Source: Pseudomonas deceptionensis (GTDB lineage: Bacteria; Pseudomonadota; Gammaproteobacteria; Pseudomonadales; Pseudomonadaceae). From it: a stretch of 64,000 bases of DNA. The first letter of the stretch is position 1. Each line of letters begins with the position of its first letter. Positions 37,268 to 55,875 of this stretch are shown in pieces. The stretch covers positions 3,307,501-3,371,500 of the forward strand of contig NZ_FNUD01000002.1 of the NCBI RefSeq assembly GCF_900106095.1, given 5' to 3'. A program made the position numbers and the translations under genes. The notes under the pieces were generated by a model. The model was not told the DNA's origin and did not search any database. It saw nothing but the letters and a program-made list of their open reading frames with translations.

Positions 37268-37302
37268 CCCCTCTCCTTATGGGAGAGGGTTGGGGTGAGG
37301 GT
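37268..37302. repeat. GGGAGAGGG-type intergenic repeat
   Basis: CCCTCTCC and GGGAGAGG form a hairpin followed by GTTGGGGTGAGGG in the mtlD-mtlY gap. The same motif makes larger palindromes at 53726-53832. Being inside the operon, it may stabilise or attenuate the downstream mRNA. Confidence 0.6.
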
Positions 37303-44295: not shown

Positions 44296-45081
44296 ATGAA
44301 AACACTGTTATTGATCGGCATCGGCGCCGGCGACCCGGAGCACATCACCGTGCAGGCAATCAATGCGCTGAACCGTGCCCGGGTGTTGTTTGTGCTCGAC
44401 AAGGGCCAGACCACTGACGACCTGGTGCGCCTGCGCCTTGAAATCTGCCGGCGCTACATTCGCGAGCCGAGTTATCGGGTGGTTCAGGTCAGCGACCCCA
44501 AGCGCGACAGCGCAACGCCGTCCTACACCCAGGGCGTTGAAGACTGGCATGAGCGTCGGGCCGAGGTCTTTACACAACTGATCGAGGACGAATTGGCCGA
44601 CGGTGAGTGCGCAGCGTTCCTGCTGTGGGGTGAGCCGGGGCTGTATGACAGCACCCTGCGCATCCTGGACCGGGTGCGGGCCAACGGTTGCAGCGGTTTT
44701 GACTATGAGGTGATCCCCGGCATCAGCAGCGTGCAGGCGCTGGCAGCCCGGCATCGCATTCCCCTGAATGAGATCGGCCAGCCGATCCGTATCACCACCG
44801 GCCGACGGCTGGTGGCGGCAGACCTGGACAACGTGGTGGTCATGCTTGATGCCCACTGTGCCTTCGAGGCCTTTGTCGATGAAGACATCGACATTTACTG
44901 GGGCGCCTACATCGGTACGGCAGACGAAATCCTGATCGCCGGCAAGCTGGCTGACGTCTGCGAGCAGATCAAACAGGCCCGCAGCGCGGCCAGAGAGCGC
45001 AAGGGCTGGGTGATGGACACGTATCTACTAAGAAGACGACCTGTAGATCGACCTGATTCCTACATGAAAGTCCGATCGTAA
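44296..45081 (+). CDS. cobF: Precorrin-6A synthase (deacetylating)
   Basis: 261 residues with GAGGGG upstream. The tetrapyrrole methyltransferase fold is clear (LIGIGAGDPEHITVQAINAL, LLWGEPGLYDSTLRIL, YEVIPGISSVQALAARHRIPLNEIG, WGAYIGTADEILIAG). CobF methylates C-1 of precorrin-5 with SAM and removes acetate in the aerobic cobalamin pathway. It is separated from the cobW-cobN block by two envelope genes. Confidence 0.92.
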   Translation: MKTLLLIGIGAGDPEHITVQAINALNRARVLFVLDKGQTTDDLVRLRLEICRRYIREPSYRVVQVSDPKRDSATPSYTQGVEDWHERRAEVFTQLIEDELADGECAAFLLWGEPGLYDSTLRILDRVRANGCSGFDYEVIPGISSVQALAARHRIPLNEIGQPIRITTGRRLVAADLDNVVVMLDAHCAFEAFVDEDIDIYWGAYIGTADEILIAGKLADVCEQIKQARSAARERKGWVMDTYLLRRRPVDRPDSYMKVRS

Positions 45082-48553: not shown

Positions 48554-48595
48554 TAGTCTGTTGACCTGTTACAAAGCACTGCGTAGCCTTGCGCG

Positions 48596-48767
48596 TTCGA
48601 GGTTCTTCGCTATGCGAAGCTAAGAAGGGAACGCGGTATGCCGCGGCTGCCCCCGCAACTGTAAACGGTCAATGATCTTGCCATGCCACTGCGCAACACG
48701 CGGGAAGGCGCAAGGTCGGAATCAGCCCTGCTGATACCCAGCCGTAAGCCAGGAGACCTGCCTCGTG
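48596..48767 (+). ncRNA. Cobalamin riboswitch
   Basis: Conserved AdoCbl-riboswitch blocks appear in order: GAACGCGG, GCTGCCCCCGCAACTGTAAACGG (48647-48667 region), GCCACTG, CGGGAAGGCGC, GATACCCAGCCGTAAGCCAGGAGACCTGCC (48733-48762). The last block carries the B12 box AGCCAGGAGACCTGCC (48747-48762). It lies about 107 bp upstream of cobW and probably turns down cobW, cobN and the chelatase subunits when adenosylcobalamin is plentiful. Confidence 0.95.
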
Positions 48768-48873
48768 ACAGATTCTTACTTCAACCGGGCGGGGTGATCC
48801 GGTGGCGAATGTTGACCGCACACTGCCTGCGGTCGTCGTCCCGTATGCCCGCCGCTTTGCCAAAGGGCATCCG

Positions 48874-49944
48874 ATGAAAACACTGGCCAAAACTCCCGTC
48901 ACCATCGTTACCGGCTTTCTCGGTTCGGGTAAAACCACGCTGTTGCGCCATATGCTGGATAACGCCCAGGGCCGTCGCATTGCGGTGATCGTCAATGAAT
49001 TCGGCGAGCTGGGCATCGACGGCGAAATCCTCAAGCAATGCACCATCGGCTGCACCGAAGAAGAAGCCAACGGCCGCATCTATGAGCTGGCCAACGGCTG
49101 CTTGTGCTGCACCGTGCAGGAAGAGTTCTTCCCGGTAATGCGTGAGCTGGTTGCGCGCCGTGGCGACATCGACCATATCCTGATCGAAACCTCGGGTCTG
49201 GCCCTGCCAAAGCCGCTGGTTCAAGCTTTCCAGTGGCCGGAAATCCGCAGCGCCTGCACCGTGGACGCGGTGATTACCGTGGTCGACAGCCCGGCCGTGG
49301 CCGCCGGCACTTTTGCCGCCTTCCCGGACCAGGTTGACGCCCAGCGCAAGCTCGACCCAAACCTGGATCACGAATCGCCGCTGCACGAGCTGTTCGCTGA
49401 CCAACTGGCCAGTGCCGACCTGGTGATCCTCAACAAGGCCGACCTGATCAGCCCTGAAGACCTGGCAAAAGTGCGCGCCGAAGTGGCTGAAGAGCTGCCG
49501 CCAGCGGTCAAAATCATCGAAGCCAGCAGTGGCCGCTTGCCGTTGGACGTGCTGCTGGGCCTGGGCGCCGGTTCTGAAGACCATATCGATGGCCGCCACA
49601 GCCACCACGACCATCACCACGATGGCGATGAGGGTCACGACGATCACGACCATGATGCCTTTGACTCGATCTCCATCGAGCTGCCACAGGGTGAAGAGCG
49701 CGTATTGATGGAGGCCCTGACCCAGTTGGTGGTCAAACACGGCATTCTGCGGGTCAAAGGCTTCGCGGCGATCCCGGGCAAGCCGATGCGTTTGCTGATC
49801 CAGGGCGTGGGTACCCGCTTTGACAAGCACTTCGACCGCGCCTGGGCTGCGGATGAGTCGCGCGTTACCAAACTGGTGCTGATCGGCCAGGACCTGGACG
49901 CCGAACTGCTCGAGTCCACTTTGCGTAAAGCGTTGAGCGAGTAA
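48874..49944 (+). CDS. cobW: CobW-type GTPase metallochaperone
   Basis: 356 residues from the ATG at 48874 (AAGGG upstream). The N-terminal G3E GTPase has Walker A GFLGSGKTTLL, the metal site GCLCCTVQ and NKADL. A His/Asp-rich loop (SHHDHHHDGDEGHDDHDHD) near residues 240-265 may bind cobalt. CobW delivers cobalt to the chelatase for aerobic cobalamin synthesis. cobN begins 3 bp later and the cobalamin riboswitch lies upstream. Confidence 0.95.
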   Translation: MKTLAKTPVTIVTGFLGSGKTTLLRHMLDNAQGRRIAVIVNEFGELGIDGEILKQCTIGCTEEEANGRIYELANGCLCCTVQEEFFPVMRELVARRGDIDHILIETSGLALPKPLVQAFQWPEIRSACTVDAVITVVDSPAVAAGTFAAFPDQVDAQRKLDPNLDHESPLHELFADQLASADLVILNKADLISPEDLAKVRAEVAEELPPAVKIIEASSGRLPLDVLLGLGAGSEDHIDGRHSHHDHHHDGDEGHDDHDHDAFDSISIELPQGEERVLMEALTQLVVKHGILRVKGFAAIPGKPMRLLIQGVGTRFDKHFDRAWAADESRVTKLVLIGQDLDAELLESTLRKALSE

Positions 49945-49947
49945 GCC

Positions 49948-52900
49948 ATGCATCTGCTCAGGACCCAGCCCGGTGGCTTTGTATCGGACGACAATATTGC
50001 CGATTTAGGCCAGACCCCCGCCGAGCTGGTGATCCTGTGCAGCGGTGATTCAAGCCTGGCACTGCTGGCCGAAGCGGCGCAGCAGTTGCCTGAAGATTAT
50101 CCAGCCTTGCGTCTGGCCAACCCGATGCAGGTACAAAACCATGGCTCGGTCGACCTTTATGTCGATCAAGTGCTGCAACACGCCAAGGTGATATTGCTGT
50201 CGTTGCACGGCGGCATCGGCTATTGGCGCTACGGCATTGAGCGCCTGGTGCAACTGGCCGAGCGCGGCGTGACGCTGATCCTGGTGCCAGGTGACGACCG
50301 TCCCGACCCGGAACTCGCTGCACTGAGCACCGTACCCGCTGAACAGGGCGAGCGGCTGTGGCACTTTTTGCGTCAGGGCGGGCGGCATAACGCACTACAG
50401 CTTTATCGTTGCCTGGCCAGCGAATGGCTGGGCCGTGATTACCCATGGGACGAACCACAAACCCTGCCGCGTACCGCGATTTATCATCCGGCCCACGCCA
50501 ATGCCGAACTCAAGGACTGGCAGGCCGACTGGGTCCCCGGGCAACCGGTTGCTGCGCTGTTGTTCTATCGCTCGCATTTGCAGGCAGCCAACACTGCGTT
50601 TGTCGATGTGTTTTGCCAGCGCTTGCTGGCTGCCGGGCTCAACCCCTTGCCGATTGCCGTGGCCAGCCTTAAAGAGCCGGGTTGCATGGCAGTGGTTGAA
50701 GCGCTGCTGGATGAAGTGCAGGCCGGGGTCATTCTCAATACCACCGGCTTTGCCCAGTCCAGCCCCGAAGCGCCGCACCTGCGCCCGTTTCGGCGCAATA
50801 TCCCGGTGATTCAGGCCATTTGCGCCCAGGACAACGAGCCGGGGTGGCGGGCCAGTGAACAAGGCCTGGGGCCCCGCGATCTGGCGATGCACATAGCATT
50901 GCCGGAGCTGGACGGGCGGATTATCAGCCGCCCGATCAGCTTCAAGGACCTGGCATGGCGCAGTGAGCGCAGCCAATCGGATGTAGTGTGTTATCGCGCT
51001 CAACCCGAACGGATGGATTTTGTCGCGCAACTGGCCCGGCGCTGGGTTGAGCTGGCCCGCGTGGCGAACCCGCAAAAGCGAGTTGCGCTGATCCTGGCCA
51101 ACTACCCGACCCGCGATGGCCGCATCGGCAACGGTGTGGGGCTCGACACCCCGGCGGCGGCGCTGAATATCCTGCGGGCCTTGCAGGCTCAAGGGTATCC
51201 GGTGGACTGCGCGTTGCCCGAGAGCGGCACGGCGCTGATCCAGGCCCTGTTGGGCGGGGTCAGCAATGATCTGGACAGCCTTGACCTGCGCCCATGCATG
51301 CAAAGCCTGGTGCTGGACGAGTACCTGGCAATGTTCAATGCGTTGCCCGAGGCCAATCGCCAGGCGGTGACCGAGCGCTGGGGTGAGCCACACAACGACC
51401 CGATGTTCCGCAGCGGGCGGTTGATGATTGCGGGGCTGCGCTTTGGCCTGACCTTTGTCGGAATTCAACCGGCGCGGGGCTATCAGGTCGATGCCAGCGC
51501 CGTGTACCACGACCCCGATCTGGTTCCGCCCCACGGCTATCTGGCGTTCTACTTCTGGTTGCGCCACACCTATGGCGCCCACGCGGTGGTGCACGTGGGC
51601 AAACACGGCAACTTGGAATGGCTGCCGGGCAAGGGCGTCGGGCTGTCCGAGCATTGCTGGCCGGACGCGATCCTGGGGCCCATGCCCAACGTCTATCCCT
51701 TTATCGTCAACGATCCGGGCGAAGGCGCGCAGGCCAAACGGCGGACCCAGGCGGTGATCATCGACCATTTGATGCCGCCGCTGACCCGGGCCGAAACCTA
51801 CGGTCCGTTGCGTGATCTGGAGCTGCTGGCCGACGAGTATTACGACGCCCAATTGCTTGATCCGCGTCGTGCCCGCGAGTTGCAGCGCAGTATTCTCAAA
51901 CTGGTGCGTGACGCCCATATCGACCGCGAGCTGCAACTGGACGAAAACCTCGACAGCGATGCCGATGCAGCGATTTGGCTGCCCCGGCTGGACACCTATT
52001 TATGCGACCTCAAGGAGTCGCAAATCCGCGACGGGCTGCATATCTTCGGTGAGTCGCCAGCCGGGCGTCTGCGTATCGATACCTTGCTGGCGTTGTTGCG
52101 CATCCCCCGTGGCGATGGTCGTGGCGCGCAATCGAGCGTGCTGCGGGCGCTGTCCAAAGCCTTTGAGCTGGGCTTCGACCCGCTGGACTGCGCGCTGGCC
52201 GAACCCTGGACGGCGCGCCAGCCTGCCGAATTGCGAGCGGTCAGTGATGAGCGCTGGCGCACGGCGGGGGATGCCCGCGAACGTCTGGAACTGTACGCCG
52301 CGCAACTGATCGAACAGGCCCTGGAGGGCCGCCTGCAGTTGCCGGATACCGCGCAATGGGCTGAGGTGCGGGCCATTTTCGACGCGCTGCTGGATACGGT
52401 GGCACCGCGTCTGGATGCCTGCGGCCCGGCCGAGATGCAAGGCCTGCTCGATGCCCTCGGCGGGCGCTTTGTGCCGGCTGGGCCCAGTGGTGCGCCGAGT
52501 CGCGGCCGTCTGGACGTGCTGCCGACCGGGCGCAACTTTTTTTCCGTGGATGTGCGCAACCTGCCGACCACCACGGCCTGGCGGATTGGTTTTCAGTCGG
52601 CCAACCTGATCCTCGAGCGTCATTTGCAGGACCACGGCGACCATTTGCGGCAGCTGGGGTTGTCGGTGTGGGGCACGGCCACCATGCGCACGGGCGGTGA
52701 TGATATCGCCCAGGCCATGGCCTTGATGGGCGTGCGCCCGGTGTGGGCCACTGGCAGTCAGCGGGTCGATGACTTTGAAATCCTGCCGGTCAGCCTGCTG
52801 GACCGCCCGCGGGTGGACGTGACCTTGCGCGTGTCGGGGTTCTTCCGCGATGCGTTTGCCAACCTGATCCGTCTGTTCGATGCTGCTGTGCAGGCGGTGG

Positions 52901-53718
52901 CGGCGCTGGACGAACCGGACGACCTCAACCCGCTGGCAGCCAGGGTGCGCAGTGAACGTGAACAGCTGGAGCGTGACGGGCTGGCACCGGAACTGGCGGC
53001 ACGCCAGGCAGGTTGGCGGGTGTTCGGCGCCAAGCCCGGGGCTTATGGCGCCGGCGTGCAGAACGCGATTGATGGCCGCCTGTGGCAAAGCCGCGATGAC
53101 CTGGCCGAGGTGTATCTGAACTGGGGCGGCTATGCCTATGGCGGCGCCGATGAAGGCACCGCCGCACGCGGCCAGTTTGCCCGGCGGTTGAGCCAGGTGC
53201 AGGCGGTGGTGCAAAACCAGGACAATCGCGAGCACGACCTGCTCGATTCCAATGACTACTATCAGTTCCAAGGCGGCATGCTGGCTGCGGTTGAGAGCTT
53301 GAGCGGGCAGGCCGCGGCCAGTTATCACGGCGACCACAGCCAGCCAGACCTGCCAAAAATCCGCAGTCTCAAGGAAGAGCTGAACCGGGTGATTCGTTCC
53401 CGTGCCGCGAATCCGAAGTGGATCGACGGGGTCAAGCGTCATGGCTACAAGGGCGCGTTCGAAATGGCTGCGACCCTGGATAACCTGTTCGCGTTTGACG
53501 CCACCACGCATTTGATTGACGACCACCAGTACGCGTTGCTGGCGGATGCCTACCTGCTGGACCCTGACACCCGTGAGTTTGTGCAGCAGCACAACCCCCA
53601 TGCCCTGCGCGACATGACCGAACGCCTGCTGGAAGCCCAGCAGCGCGGGCTTTGGGGTGAGCCTGGCGAGTACCGCGAGGCACTGGAAAACCTGTTGCTG
53701 GATATAGAAGAAGAGTAA
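49948..53718 (+). CDS. cobN: Cobaltochelatase large subunit
   Basis: 1256 residues, full length for CobN. Family motifs: [43 protein letters not shown] and [20 protein letters not shown]. It inserts Co2+ into hydrogenobyrinate a,c-diamide with ATP. The gene has no separate CobS/CobT neighbours; instead ChlI/ChlD-type subunits follow, so the active enzyme is probably CobN with these. It begins 3 bp after cobW. Confidence 0.95.
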   Translation: [1256 protein letters not shown]

Positions 53719-53725
53719 AAAGCGA

Positions 53726-53832
53726 CCCTCACCCTAGCCCTCTCCCAGTGGGAGAGGGGACTGATTGGGGGATGTTAAGGATTTTCGCATCACCACACAT
53801 CGGCTCCCTCTGGGAGAGGGCTGGGGTGAGGG
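53726..53832. repeat. Long GGGTGAGGG-type palindrome between cobN and the AAA+ gene
   Basis: A 22-bp arm at 53726-53747 and its near-complement at 53811-53832 (one mismatch) enclose further CTCTCCC/GGGAGAGG symmetry. Related shorter copies lie at 37268-37302 and 31600-31628. This is a chromosomal repeat family, placed here inside the chelatase operon, so a role in mRNA processing is possible. Confidence 0.75.
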
Positions 53833-53877
53833 CTTTATTGAAGTCGATCAACATTCTACGAATTGGAACCCGAAAAC

Positions 53878-54885
53878 ATGACTGACACCCCGCATTTCCC
53901 GTTATCGGCGGTGGTCGGCGCGCAGGCCTTGAAACTGGCGCTGTGCCTGACGGCCATCGACCCGAAAATCGGCGGCGTGCTGATCGAAGGCCCGCGCGGC
54001 ATGGCCAAGTCGACCCTGGCCCGGGGCCTCGCGGACCTGCTGGCCAGCGGTCAATTTGTCACCTTGCCCCTGGGCGCCACTGAAGAGCGGCTGGTGGGTA
54101 CCCTCGATCTGGATGCGGCGCTGGGGCAGGGCAAGGCGCAGTTTTCGCCCGGTGTGCTGGCCAAGGCCGACGGCGGCGTGCTGTATGTCGATGAAGTGAA
54201 TTTGCTGGCCGACCATCTGGTGGATGTACTGCTGGATGTGGCAGCGAGCGGCACCAACGTGGTCGAGCGCGATGGTATCTCCCATCGTCACGCCGCGCGC
54301 TTCGTGCTGATTGGCACCATGAACCCCGAAGAAGGTGAATTGCGCCCGCAGTTGCTCGACCGTTTTGGCCTGAACGTCGCCATGAGCGGTCAGCCGCCAC
54401 CGGCCGAGCGTGGAGAAATCATTCGCCGTCGGCTGGACTTCGATGCCGACCCTCAAGGTTTCTGTGCGCACTGGGCCCCGCAGCAGGACGCCTTGCGCGA
54501 ACGCTGCCAGCAGGCACGTGAATTGTTGCACGGCATCGCCCTTGATGATCAGGCCCTGACCGTGATCACCGAGCGCTGCTTTGCCGCGGCAGTGGACGGC
54601 ATGCGCGCCGATCTGGTGTGGTTGCGGGCGGCGCGGGCCCATGCGGCATGGCGCGGGGCAACGGCGATCAGTCTGGACGATATCGATGCGGTGGCCGAGT
54701 TCGCCTTGCGCCATCGTCGCCGCGAATCCACCGGCCAGGCACCTACGCCCGAGCCGCCGCAATCACCGCCGCAATCGAGCAGCGCATCACCCCGGTCCGG
54801 CCAGGGCCAGTGGGGCGAGTTACCGGCCCAGCCCCAGGCATCCGGCGCTCGCCGTGAAGTGCCGAGCTGGCCAAAAAAGCCTTAG
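53878..54885 (+). CDS. chlD: AAA+ chelatase subunit (ChlI-like product; N-terminal half of a -1 frameshifted ChlD)
   Basis: 335 residues from the ATG at 53878. AAA+ motifs: Walker A EGPRGMAKSTLARGL, a LPLGATEERLVGTLD insertion, Walker B VLYVDEVNLLADHLVDVLLD and the sensor segment IGTMNPEEGELRPQLLDRFGL. A proline-rich tail (TPEPPQSPPQ) follows residue 285. It supplies ATPase power to CobN. The zero frame ends PSWPKKP-stop directly after the slippery heptamer A AAA AAG. The -1 frame continues as KKALGIRPRP into the vWA domain, predicting a 557-residue medium subunit as well. A start at 53863 (TTG) is also open. Confidence 0.85.
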   Translation: MTDTPHFPLSAVVGAQALKLALCLTAIDPKIGGVLIEGPRGMAKSTLARGLADLLASGQFVTLPLGATEERLVGTLDLDAALGQGKAQFSPGVLAKADGGVLYVDEVNLLADHLVDVLLDVAASGTNVVERDGISHRHAARFVLIGTMNPEEGELRPQLLDRFGLNVAMSGQPPPAERGEIIRRRLDFDADPQGFCAHWAPQQDALRERCQQARELLHGIALDDQALTVITERCFAAAVDGMRADLVWLRAARAHAAWRGATAISLDDIDAVAEFALRHRRRESTGQAPTPEPPQSPPQSSSASPRSGQGQWGELPAQPQASGARREVPSWPKKP

Positions 54886-54920
54886 GCATTCGCCCTCGAC
54901 CGGCAGAGGGGGCGGATGCC
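54873..54920 (+). promoter_or_regulatory. Programmed -1 ribosomal frameshift signal
   Basis: A canonical slippery heptamer A AAA AAG (54873-54879, in the right phase with the AAA+ frame) is followed by a 5-nt spacer (CCTTA, holding part of the zero-frame stop) and a hairpin. The 5' arm is at 54885-54897 and the 3' arm at 54906-54920, about 13 pairs with an 8-nt loop. The zero-frame TAG is at 54883-54885. In the -1 frame there is no stop until 55550. The heptamer, spacer and stem all match known -1 frameshift cassettes. Confidence 0.8.
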
Positions 54921-54995
54921 AGACCCCAGGCAGGCCAGCTCAGTACGGGCAAGCAGGGCACCTGTCGCAGTGCCGACAACGGGGCGGTTGATTGG

Positions 54996-55550
54996 GTGAA
55001 GACCTTGCTCGGCGGGCGCCCGCGTCAGCGTGCCGATCTGGCATTTAAAACCCGGCAAAGCAGCGCACAGGAACTGTGGCTTGTGGTGGTGGATGCGTCC
55101 GCCTCGACCCGTCGCCATCAGGCGCTGAGCGATGCCAAGGGCGTGTTGGCCCAGCTGTTTGAGGATGCTTATCGCCAGCGTGCCCGGGTGGCCGTGATGA
55201 CGGCCAGCGGGCATGCGCCGCAGTGGCAGGTCAGTGGCTCGAAGGCGTCGAAAGCCCTGGATGAATGGTTACAGGGTTTGGGTGCAGGAGGCGGTACGCC
55301 GTTGCTGGAAGCGTTGCGCGAGGTGGCGAGGTGGCTCGATGGTCGGCGCAAGCAATTTCCACAGGAACAGCAGCGCTTTTTGTTGCTGACCGATGGTCGT
55401 TTGAAGGAGTGGCCGGCCTTGCCCGCGATTGACTGCCCGGGGCTGCTGATCGATATCGAGAGAGGCCCGATTCGTCTGGGCCGATCCCGTCAGATGGCGC
55501 TGGAGCTCAATGCAGAATACCTGCATATCGACGGGTTGAATCTGGTGTAG
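54996..55550 (+). CDS. von Willebrand factor A domain of the chelatase medium subunit (ChlD-type), -1 frame
   Basis: The vWA fold is clear: MIDAS residues in VVDASAST (DxSxS), Thr in GGGTPLLEAL and Asp in LLTDGR. Coordinates start at a GTG (54996), but the same frame is open back to 54855 and reads on from the slippery site at 54879 through a linker (ALGIRPRPAEGADARPQ). No good ribosome site precedes the GTG, so synthesis mainly as a -1 frameshift fusion with the AAA+ part is likely. In ChlD the vWA domain binds the AAA+ ring and contacts the large subunit. A stand-alone 184-residue product is possible. Confidence 0.8.
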   Translation: MKTLLGGRPRQRADLAFKTRQSSAQELWLVVVDASASTRRHQALSDAKGVLAQLFEDAYRQRARVAVMTASGHAPQWQVSGSKASKALDEWLQGLGAGGGTPLLEALREVARWLDGRRKQFPQEQQRFLLLTDGRLKEWPALPAIDCPGLLIDIERGPIRLGRSRQMALELNAEYLHIDGLNLV

Positions 55551-55608
55551 AGGCTGAAAGCAAAATGGGGGAGCGAGGCCCGATCCCCCACGTCAGCTGT
55601 AAAGCTGA

Positions 55609-55875
55609 TTAAGCCGGCATTACCCAAGGCTGCAGCGCGTAGCCTTCGCTGCTCAGCTCGGCCCGGGCTTGTGCCAGCAGGCTTTCGAGTTGGGCGGCAT
55701 CTGCGCAGGCGCTGCGCGGGATCTGTTTGCGGCCGATACGGGTACTGGTGCGGTCGATAACGGTCAGGCTCAATTCGCCGTGGCCGTCCTGTGCAGCCCA
55801 GGCAACGCATTGAAAAGGTTCAAAGGCGTGGCCGGCAATCAAAAGAGCTTCGTTGAAACGGAGCGGGGCGTTCAT
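55609..55875 (-). CDS. Small conserved-looking hypothetical protein
   Basis: 88 residues with AGAGAG upstream. No recognised domain: RFNEALLIAGHAFEPFQCVAWAAQDGHGELSLTVIDRTSTRIGRK suggests mostly beta structure, and the C-terminus is helical. It converges on the chelatase block. Function unknown. Confidence 0.65.
   Translation of the reverse strand: MNAPLRFNEALLIAGHAFEPFQCVAWAAQDGHGELSLTVIDRTSTRIGRKQIPRSACADAAQLESLLAQARAELSSEGYALQPWVMPA

Follow-up and report, generated by a model that had tools for sequence, protein, structure and literature searches.

A frameshift site in the chlD gene of Pseudomonas deceptionensis that very probably serves to make two subunits of an aerobic cobaltochelatase

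The chlD gene that follows cobN in Pseudomonas deceptionensis is very probably a frameshift gene of the fs-chlD type, in which -1 programmed ribosomal frameshifting would yield both a ChlI-like and a ChlD-like subunit of an aerobic cobaltochelatase. The observation itself is confirmed in detail in the window, that is, the whole stretch of 64,000 nucleotides that was analysed, and the case is carried by conservation rather than by any single fold. The frameshift reading is supported by a conserved heptamer, spacer, and stem, by a switch of the frame under selection, and by the lack of a CobS, CobT, or second ChlI match in the genome. That both products are made, in a certain ratio, and that they act jointly with CobN, we infer. 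The locus is composed of the following elements:

53878..54885, + strand: zero-frame open reading frame (335 aa), an AAA+ ATPase resembling the small subunit ChlI
54873..54879, + strand: slippery heptamer A_AAA_AAG in the zero-frame phase, read from the sequence and invariant in the 78-sequence alignment A1
54880..54884, + strand: 5-nt spacer (sequence, fold), overlapping the zero-frame stop TAG at 54883-54885
54885..54920, + strand: hairpin of 13 bp with a 10-nt loop, the presumed stimulator (predicted fold; 98.5% paired in relatives)
54879..55550, + strand: -1 frame, linker and vWA domain with MIDAS (domain matches, codon periodicity)

The short product starts at ATG 53878, and positions 54871-54885 read CCA AAA AAG CCT TAG in the zero frame, so that the heptamer at 54873-54879 is in phase for a -1 shift. 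The first base of the zero-frame stop lies 3 nt past the heptamer and its last base 6 nt past. No second in-frame A_AAA_AAR occurs among the 6977 codons of the 16 open reading frames in the window. The computed masses are 35.8 kDa for the short product and 60.0 kDa for the joined product of 557 aa, in which the predicted junction joins WPKK to ALGIR and the MIDAS motif DASAS occupies residues 406-410. The heptamer, phase, stop position, 5-nt spacer, and hairpin described in the earlier note were thus all recovered on sequence and fold, as were the lengths of 335 and 557 residues and a -1 frame open through the vWA domain and MIDAS to 55550. In the proposed mechanism, ribosomes that keep the zero frame would stop at TAG 54883 and release the 335-aa AAA+ ATPase as the small (I) subunit. 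The hairpin 5 nt downstream would help some ribosomes to slip one base back at A_AAA_AAG, and these would read on through the linker and the vWA domain to make the 557-aa medium (D) subunit. The I and D subunits would then form an AAA+ motor with CobN that inserts cobalt in aerobic B12 synthesis.

Domain and family matches are consistent with these roles. In the 335-aa product a Walker A motif (GPRGMAKS) and a Walker B motif (LYVDE) can be made out, as would fit an AAA+ domain that needs to work as an ATPase. This product matches solved ChlI and 38-kDa magnesium-chelatase subunits, and scores 337 bits against the ChlI model TIGR02030, below the curated cut-off of 467; it is therefore ChlI-like, not a curated ChlI. 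The -1 part contains the vWA domain as a PF13519 match and resembles the solved 60-kDa magnesium-chelatase subunit (2x31). With 289 bits against the BchD-ChlD model TIGR02031, below the curated cut-off of 500, the joined product is likewise only ChlD-like. Its best family is the putative cobaltochelatase TIGR02442, with 494 bits compared to 416 for the zero-frame part alone; this too is below the curated cut-off (779). TIGR02442 is also the best family for two fused relatives, which likewise stay below the cut-off with 458 bits in one and 487 in the other.

The neighbouring elements on the 5' side include the following:

44296-45081, within the window: cobF
48583..48779, + strand: cobalamin riboswitch, followed by cobW and cobN (RF00174, 108.5 bits)
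48802..49944, + strand: cobW (TIGR02475, 532 bits)
49948..53718, + strand: cobN, large cobaltochelatase subunit (TIGR02257, 1738 bits)

We take cobF to mark the aerobic B12 route. The adjacency of cobN claimed earlier holds, the gene lying just upstream on the same strand. Matches to microRNA and Thr-leader RNA families were rejected because their scores fell below their gathering scores, and a scan of 53600-55700 for promoters and terminators found none. A 21-nt repeat, CCCTCACCCTAGCCCTCTCCC, occurs with variants at 53726-53746 (+), 53812-53832 (-), and 37281-37301 (-); no copy is expected by chance. The first two stand in inverted orientation in the interval from cobN to chlD, and the repeat looks like a REP-type element.

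The slip site is conserved in relatives. The genome (5.1 Mb) has its nearest named protein relatives in Pseudomonas, with 89-90% identity (L009, L010). A set of 80 named loci comprised 73 split ones, four fused ones, and three cut by contig ends ahead of the junction. All 73 readable split loci carry A_AAA_AAR in phase (AAG in 64, AAA in nine), and the zero-frame stop follows 3 nt past the heptamer in 72 of them and immediately in the remaining one (L044). In L044, and also in L114, a TAA follows the heptamer without the usual gap of 3 nt, and a ribosome on the slip site thus has the stop as its next codon. Within the genus, the AAA+ part was matched at E <= 1e-60 in 280 of 298 genomes, and the slip site is present in all 30 of the best loci from the 280 matching genomes, the present locus included. 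Eleven further genus genomes, ten weak-scoring ones and G176, were re-examined: five loci were readable and all have the site, three were cut by contig ends, and three were disrupted (G034, G080, G162), the copy in G080 (genome 86% complete) having AGAAAAG. A survey of 398 genomes across the phylum gave 59 matches, of which 28 new loci were read and 29 weaker matches stand outside the counts. The 28 loci comprised 21 split genes, all with the slip site, six fused genes, and one other ChlI-like protein. Overlapping AAA+ and vWA frames in a -1 relation, with a conserved in-phase A_AAA_AAR ahead of the stop, are thus found here as in fs-chlD genes.

The linkage to cobN is similarly widespread. 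Upstream cobN on the same strand was found in 75 of the 80 named loci, at most 583 nt away in 65; the five without it are the four fused ones and L070, whose contig stops ahead of the vWA part. Conversely, the 18 congeners lacking a chlD gene comprise 11 with no cobN match (three of these genomes are 73-78% complete), six with weak partial cobN matches, and one (G272) whose cobN lies at a contig end, a position where the following gene would be lost. All 12 tested genomes with a chlD gene carry cobN, whole or in pieces. Six congeners without chlD (G060, G082, G180, G185, G242, and G259) have a distant CobN-like protein (frame of 1408-1491 codons, best piece 215-228 bits), and none of the six has a strong TIGR02442 match. 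In L123, from G176, cobN runs on into the AAA+ frame without an intervening stop, the two sharing a single open frame of 1582 codons in which the chlD start is locus base 1501; this is possibly a joined CobN-ChlI protein or an assembly error.

Codon periodicity shows that the frame under selection changes at the heptamer. The alignment used comprised 88 sequences; the 125 loci of this analysis had been picked for having the heptamer, so they give no measure of its conservation. Ahead of the heptamer, zero-frame position 3 is the most variable, with a diversity of 0.546 in one stretch and 0.524 in another. In the interval 7-90 nt past the heptamer, the most variable position is the second of the zero frame and hence the third of the -1 frame (0.421 compared to 0.200 and 0.254), and -1-frame position 3 remains so to the end of the stretch (0.428-0.557). 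This shift of the variable codon position implies that selection follows the -1 frame right past the heptamer.

The hairpin is best judged from its relatives. Taken alone, the 61-nt hairpin stretch is unremarkable compared to shuffled sequences (z -1.48, 16 of 200 equally good), and the 121 nt around the slip site give a fold z of -2.88. Alignment A1 was drawn from the 82 sequences that reach 74% identity, 23 more distant loci being left out, and holds 78 of them; L041, L056, and L057, which failed a register test, and L051, which was removed by eye, were dropped because their stems differ. In A1, the stem is paired in 98.5% of 1014 cells, compared to 36-53% for versions slid out of register. 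Both sides have changed in 21 cells, a number that none of 500 shuffles reached. Twenty of the 21 fall on one stem pair (U-A 38, C-G 20, U-G 20), and the number of stem pairs with a both-side change, two of 13, is not above that of shuffles, 78 of 500 of which reach it. We conclude that a predicted and conserved stem, presumed to be stimulatory, provides the downstream RNA structure seen in fs-chlD genes, and that heptamer, spacer, and stem are all preserved in related Pseudomonas, as the earlier note had proposed checking. The 121-nt fold also pairs GAGCUGGCC just 5' of the slip site with GGCCAGCUC downstream; this outer helix was rejected as a conserved element, as it is 72.9% paired in the 78 relatives compared to a shuffle mean of 72.4, with 110 of 500 shuffles as high.

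The same signals bear on the alternatives. One is transcriptional slippage: the RNA polymerase would gain or lose bases while copying the A6 run and so put part of the mRNAs in register. The site is indeed a run of A, and passages of PMC3711429 describe an efficiency that grew with the length of such runs, with frameshifting in E. coli of 63, 40, and 10% at sites with 11, 9, and 7 A. However, the run here has just six A, whereas PMC3711429 gives A runs above 7 for transcriptional slippage, and slippage by the polymerase needs neither the phase, nor the terminal G, nor a paired stem at a fixed spacing. We therefore regard it as highly improbable.

Equally hard to sustain is the view that the vWA part is a separate protein, started at GTG 54996 or TTG 55005 either by coupling or once the zero frame has terminated, with no joined product. 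The earlier note saw no convincing start within the -1 frame, and this stands in so far as no ATG precedes the vWA domain at this locus and no start is firmly conserved, but the two codons do exist in the -1 frame, and either would keep the vWA domain whole. Moreover, one or more ATG, GTG, or TTG codons lie between the heptamer and MIDAS in 88 of 91 distinct loci with at least 69% identity (the disrupted L132 and L135 being skipped). Nevertheless, 69 of the 91 have no ATG in the -1 frame ahead of MIDAS, the site of GTG 54996 is GTG in eight and TTG in three, and that of TTG 55005 is TTG in 54. The separate-protein view also sits poorly with the retention of the heptamer, with -1-frame selection that begins 7 nt past it, far upstream of these starts, and with fused homologues that share the domain order. 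Finally, although some congener copies are disrupted (G034, G080, G162), a broken gene or a sequencing error has a practically negligible chance and is refuted by the identical split at the identical site in every one of the 73 split loci of the named set that could be read, together with codon-level selection on both frames.

The genome has no match to CobS (TIGR01650) or CobT (TIGR01651), both of which are matched in a Caulobacter control genome, and the ChlI model finds nothing besides the chlD gene except two weak matches of 23-25 bits. The suggested search for cobS, cobT, and a second chlI thus gave no match to any of them, and the genome has no separate small-subunit gene, as in fs-chlD genomes, a feature that is not exclusive to frameshift genomes. 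Indeed, in each of 21 genomes searched for ChlI (E <= 1e-20), 15 frameshift and six fused, chlD is the only gene that matches, and a CobS match was found in none of the six fused-gene genomes. Since the fused genomes also lack a chlI or CobS match, the absence of chlI alone is no proof that the short product is needed. Among seven frameshift genomes outside the Pseudomonas family, two have a CobS-like gene (530 and 502 bits, cut-off 559) and two more have weaker matches (122-124 bits). The two strong CobS-like genes lie elsewhere in the genomes of G548 and G490 (chlD loci L159 and L162), in which two chelatase types may coexist.

Relatives in which the two frames are joined without a slip site had been named as cases that would tell against frameshifting. 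Such relatives do exist: fused AAA+/vWA genes with no conserved slip site were found at L160, L163, L165-L167, and L169, and at L173-L202. They form separate clades, however, and the four with long flanks have no adjacent cobN. A hidden frameshift in fused genes was considered and rejected: the linkers of 10 fused loci have no shared slip site, although some A-rich runs occur in those of AT-rich loci. The same was concluded for the G347 family, which was matched in 37 of 91 genomes; 30 loci were read, 20 of them entered a codon alignment that was also inspected for a dip in third-base diversity, and no conserved site was found. One of the 20 has a run of N, and two matches hold one internal TGA. 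A tree was built from the AAA+ parts of 40 frameshift genes, 21 fused genes, and one outgroup (62 in all). The state changes at least twice in it, but strongly supported branches force only one change, and long branches make the root unsure. The locus also sharpens the question of what plays the small subunit in fused-gene relatives in which no small-subunit gene was found.

Passages of PMC5009743 raise a regulatory potential and a triplex. In this vein, the frameshift could be a regulated valve whose long, GC-rich, little-varying stem responds either to the chelatase and its state or to a divalent metal such as cobalt, an extension to which we give a small chance. If so, the stem would set the ratio of short to long product next to genes that a B12 riboswitch already controls, and the existence of fused relatives that lack a small-subunit gene would imply that the short product tunes the enzyme and is not indispensable.

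Genes of the chlD type with a programmed -1 frameshift were reportedly treated by Antonov 2020 (Mol Biol Evol 37:2268). The device as such has already been described, Pseudomonas included, in PMC3711429, PMC5009743, and PMC9227772, and the earlier note was right to call it known. PMC3711429 reports 23 frameshift genes for magnesium chelatase from six genera, Pseudomonas among them, and states that such genes had been annotated as two neighbouring genes; its values of 10-63% in E. coli, obtained with relatives of the present gene, speak for frameshifting here as well. According to PMC5009743, A_AAA_AAR is under strong purifying selection in Pseudomonas and others, and PMC9227772 sets out a proposal in which a single fs-chlD gene is the origin of both the small and the medium subunit of cobaltochelatase. 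Nothing essential distinguishes our locus from known frameshift chlD genes, which in the passages of PMC3711429 and PMC9227772 share the overlapping AAA+ and vWA frames, in that order, the A_AAA_AAR site, and the downstream structure; the three cassettes measured in PMC3711429 have 7, 9, and 11 A, whereas the site here is A6G. The closest parallel is the magnesium-chelatase site of Pseudomonas protegens (PMC5009743), which has the same A_AAA_AAR and a printed stem-loop that is almost identical, with small sequence differences in loop and stem. The CobN-CobS-CobT cobaltochelatase likewise combines large, medium, and small subunits in the same proposed reaction (PMC9227772), but neither CobS nor CobT is matched in the present genome. 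The locus is a clean, testable case in which recoding would let one gene supply two subunits of a B12 enzyme, and it belongs to a genus that is easy to handle. It resembles E. coli dnaX, which according to passages of PMC3711429 also uses A_AAA_AAG and a downstream hairpin to obtain two subunits of an AAA+ complex from one gene; the shift yields the shorter product in dnaX, whereas here it yields the longer.
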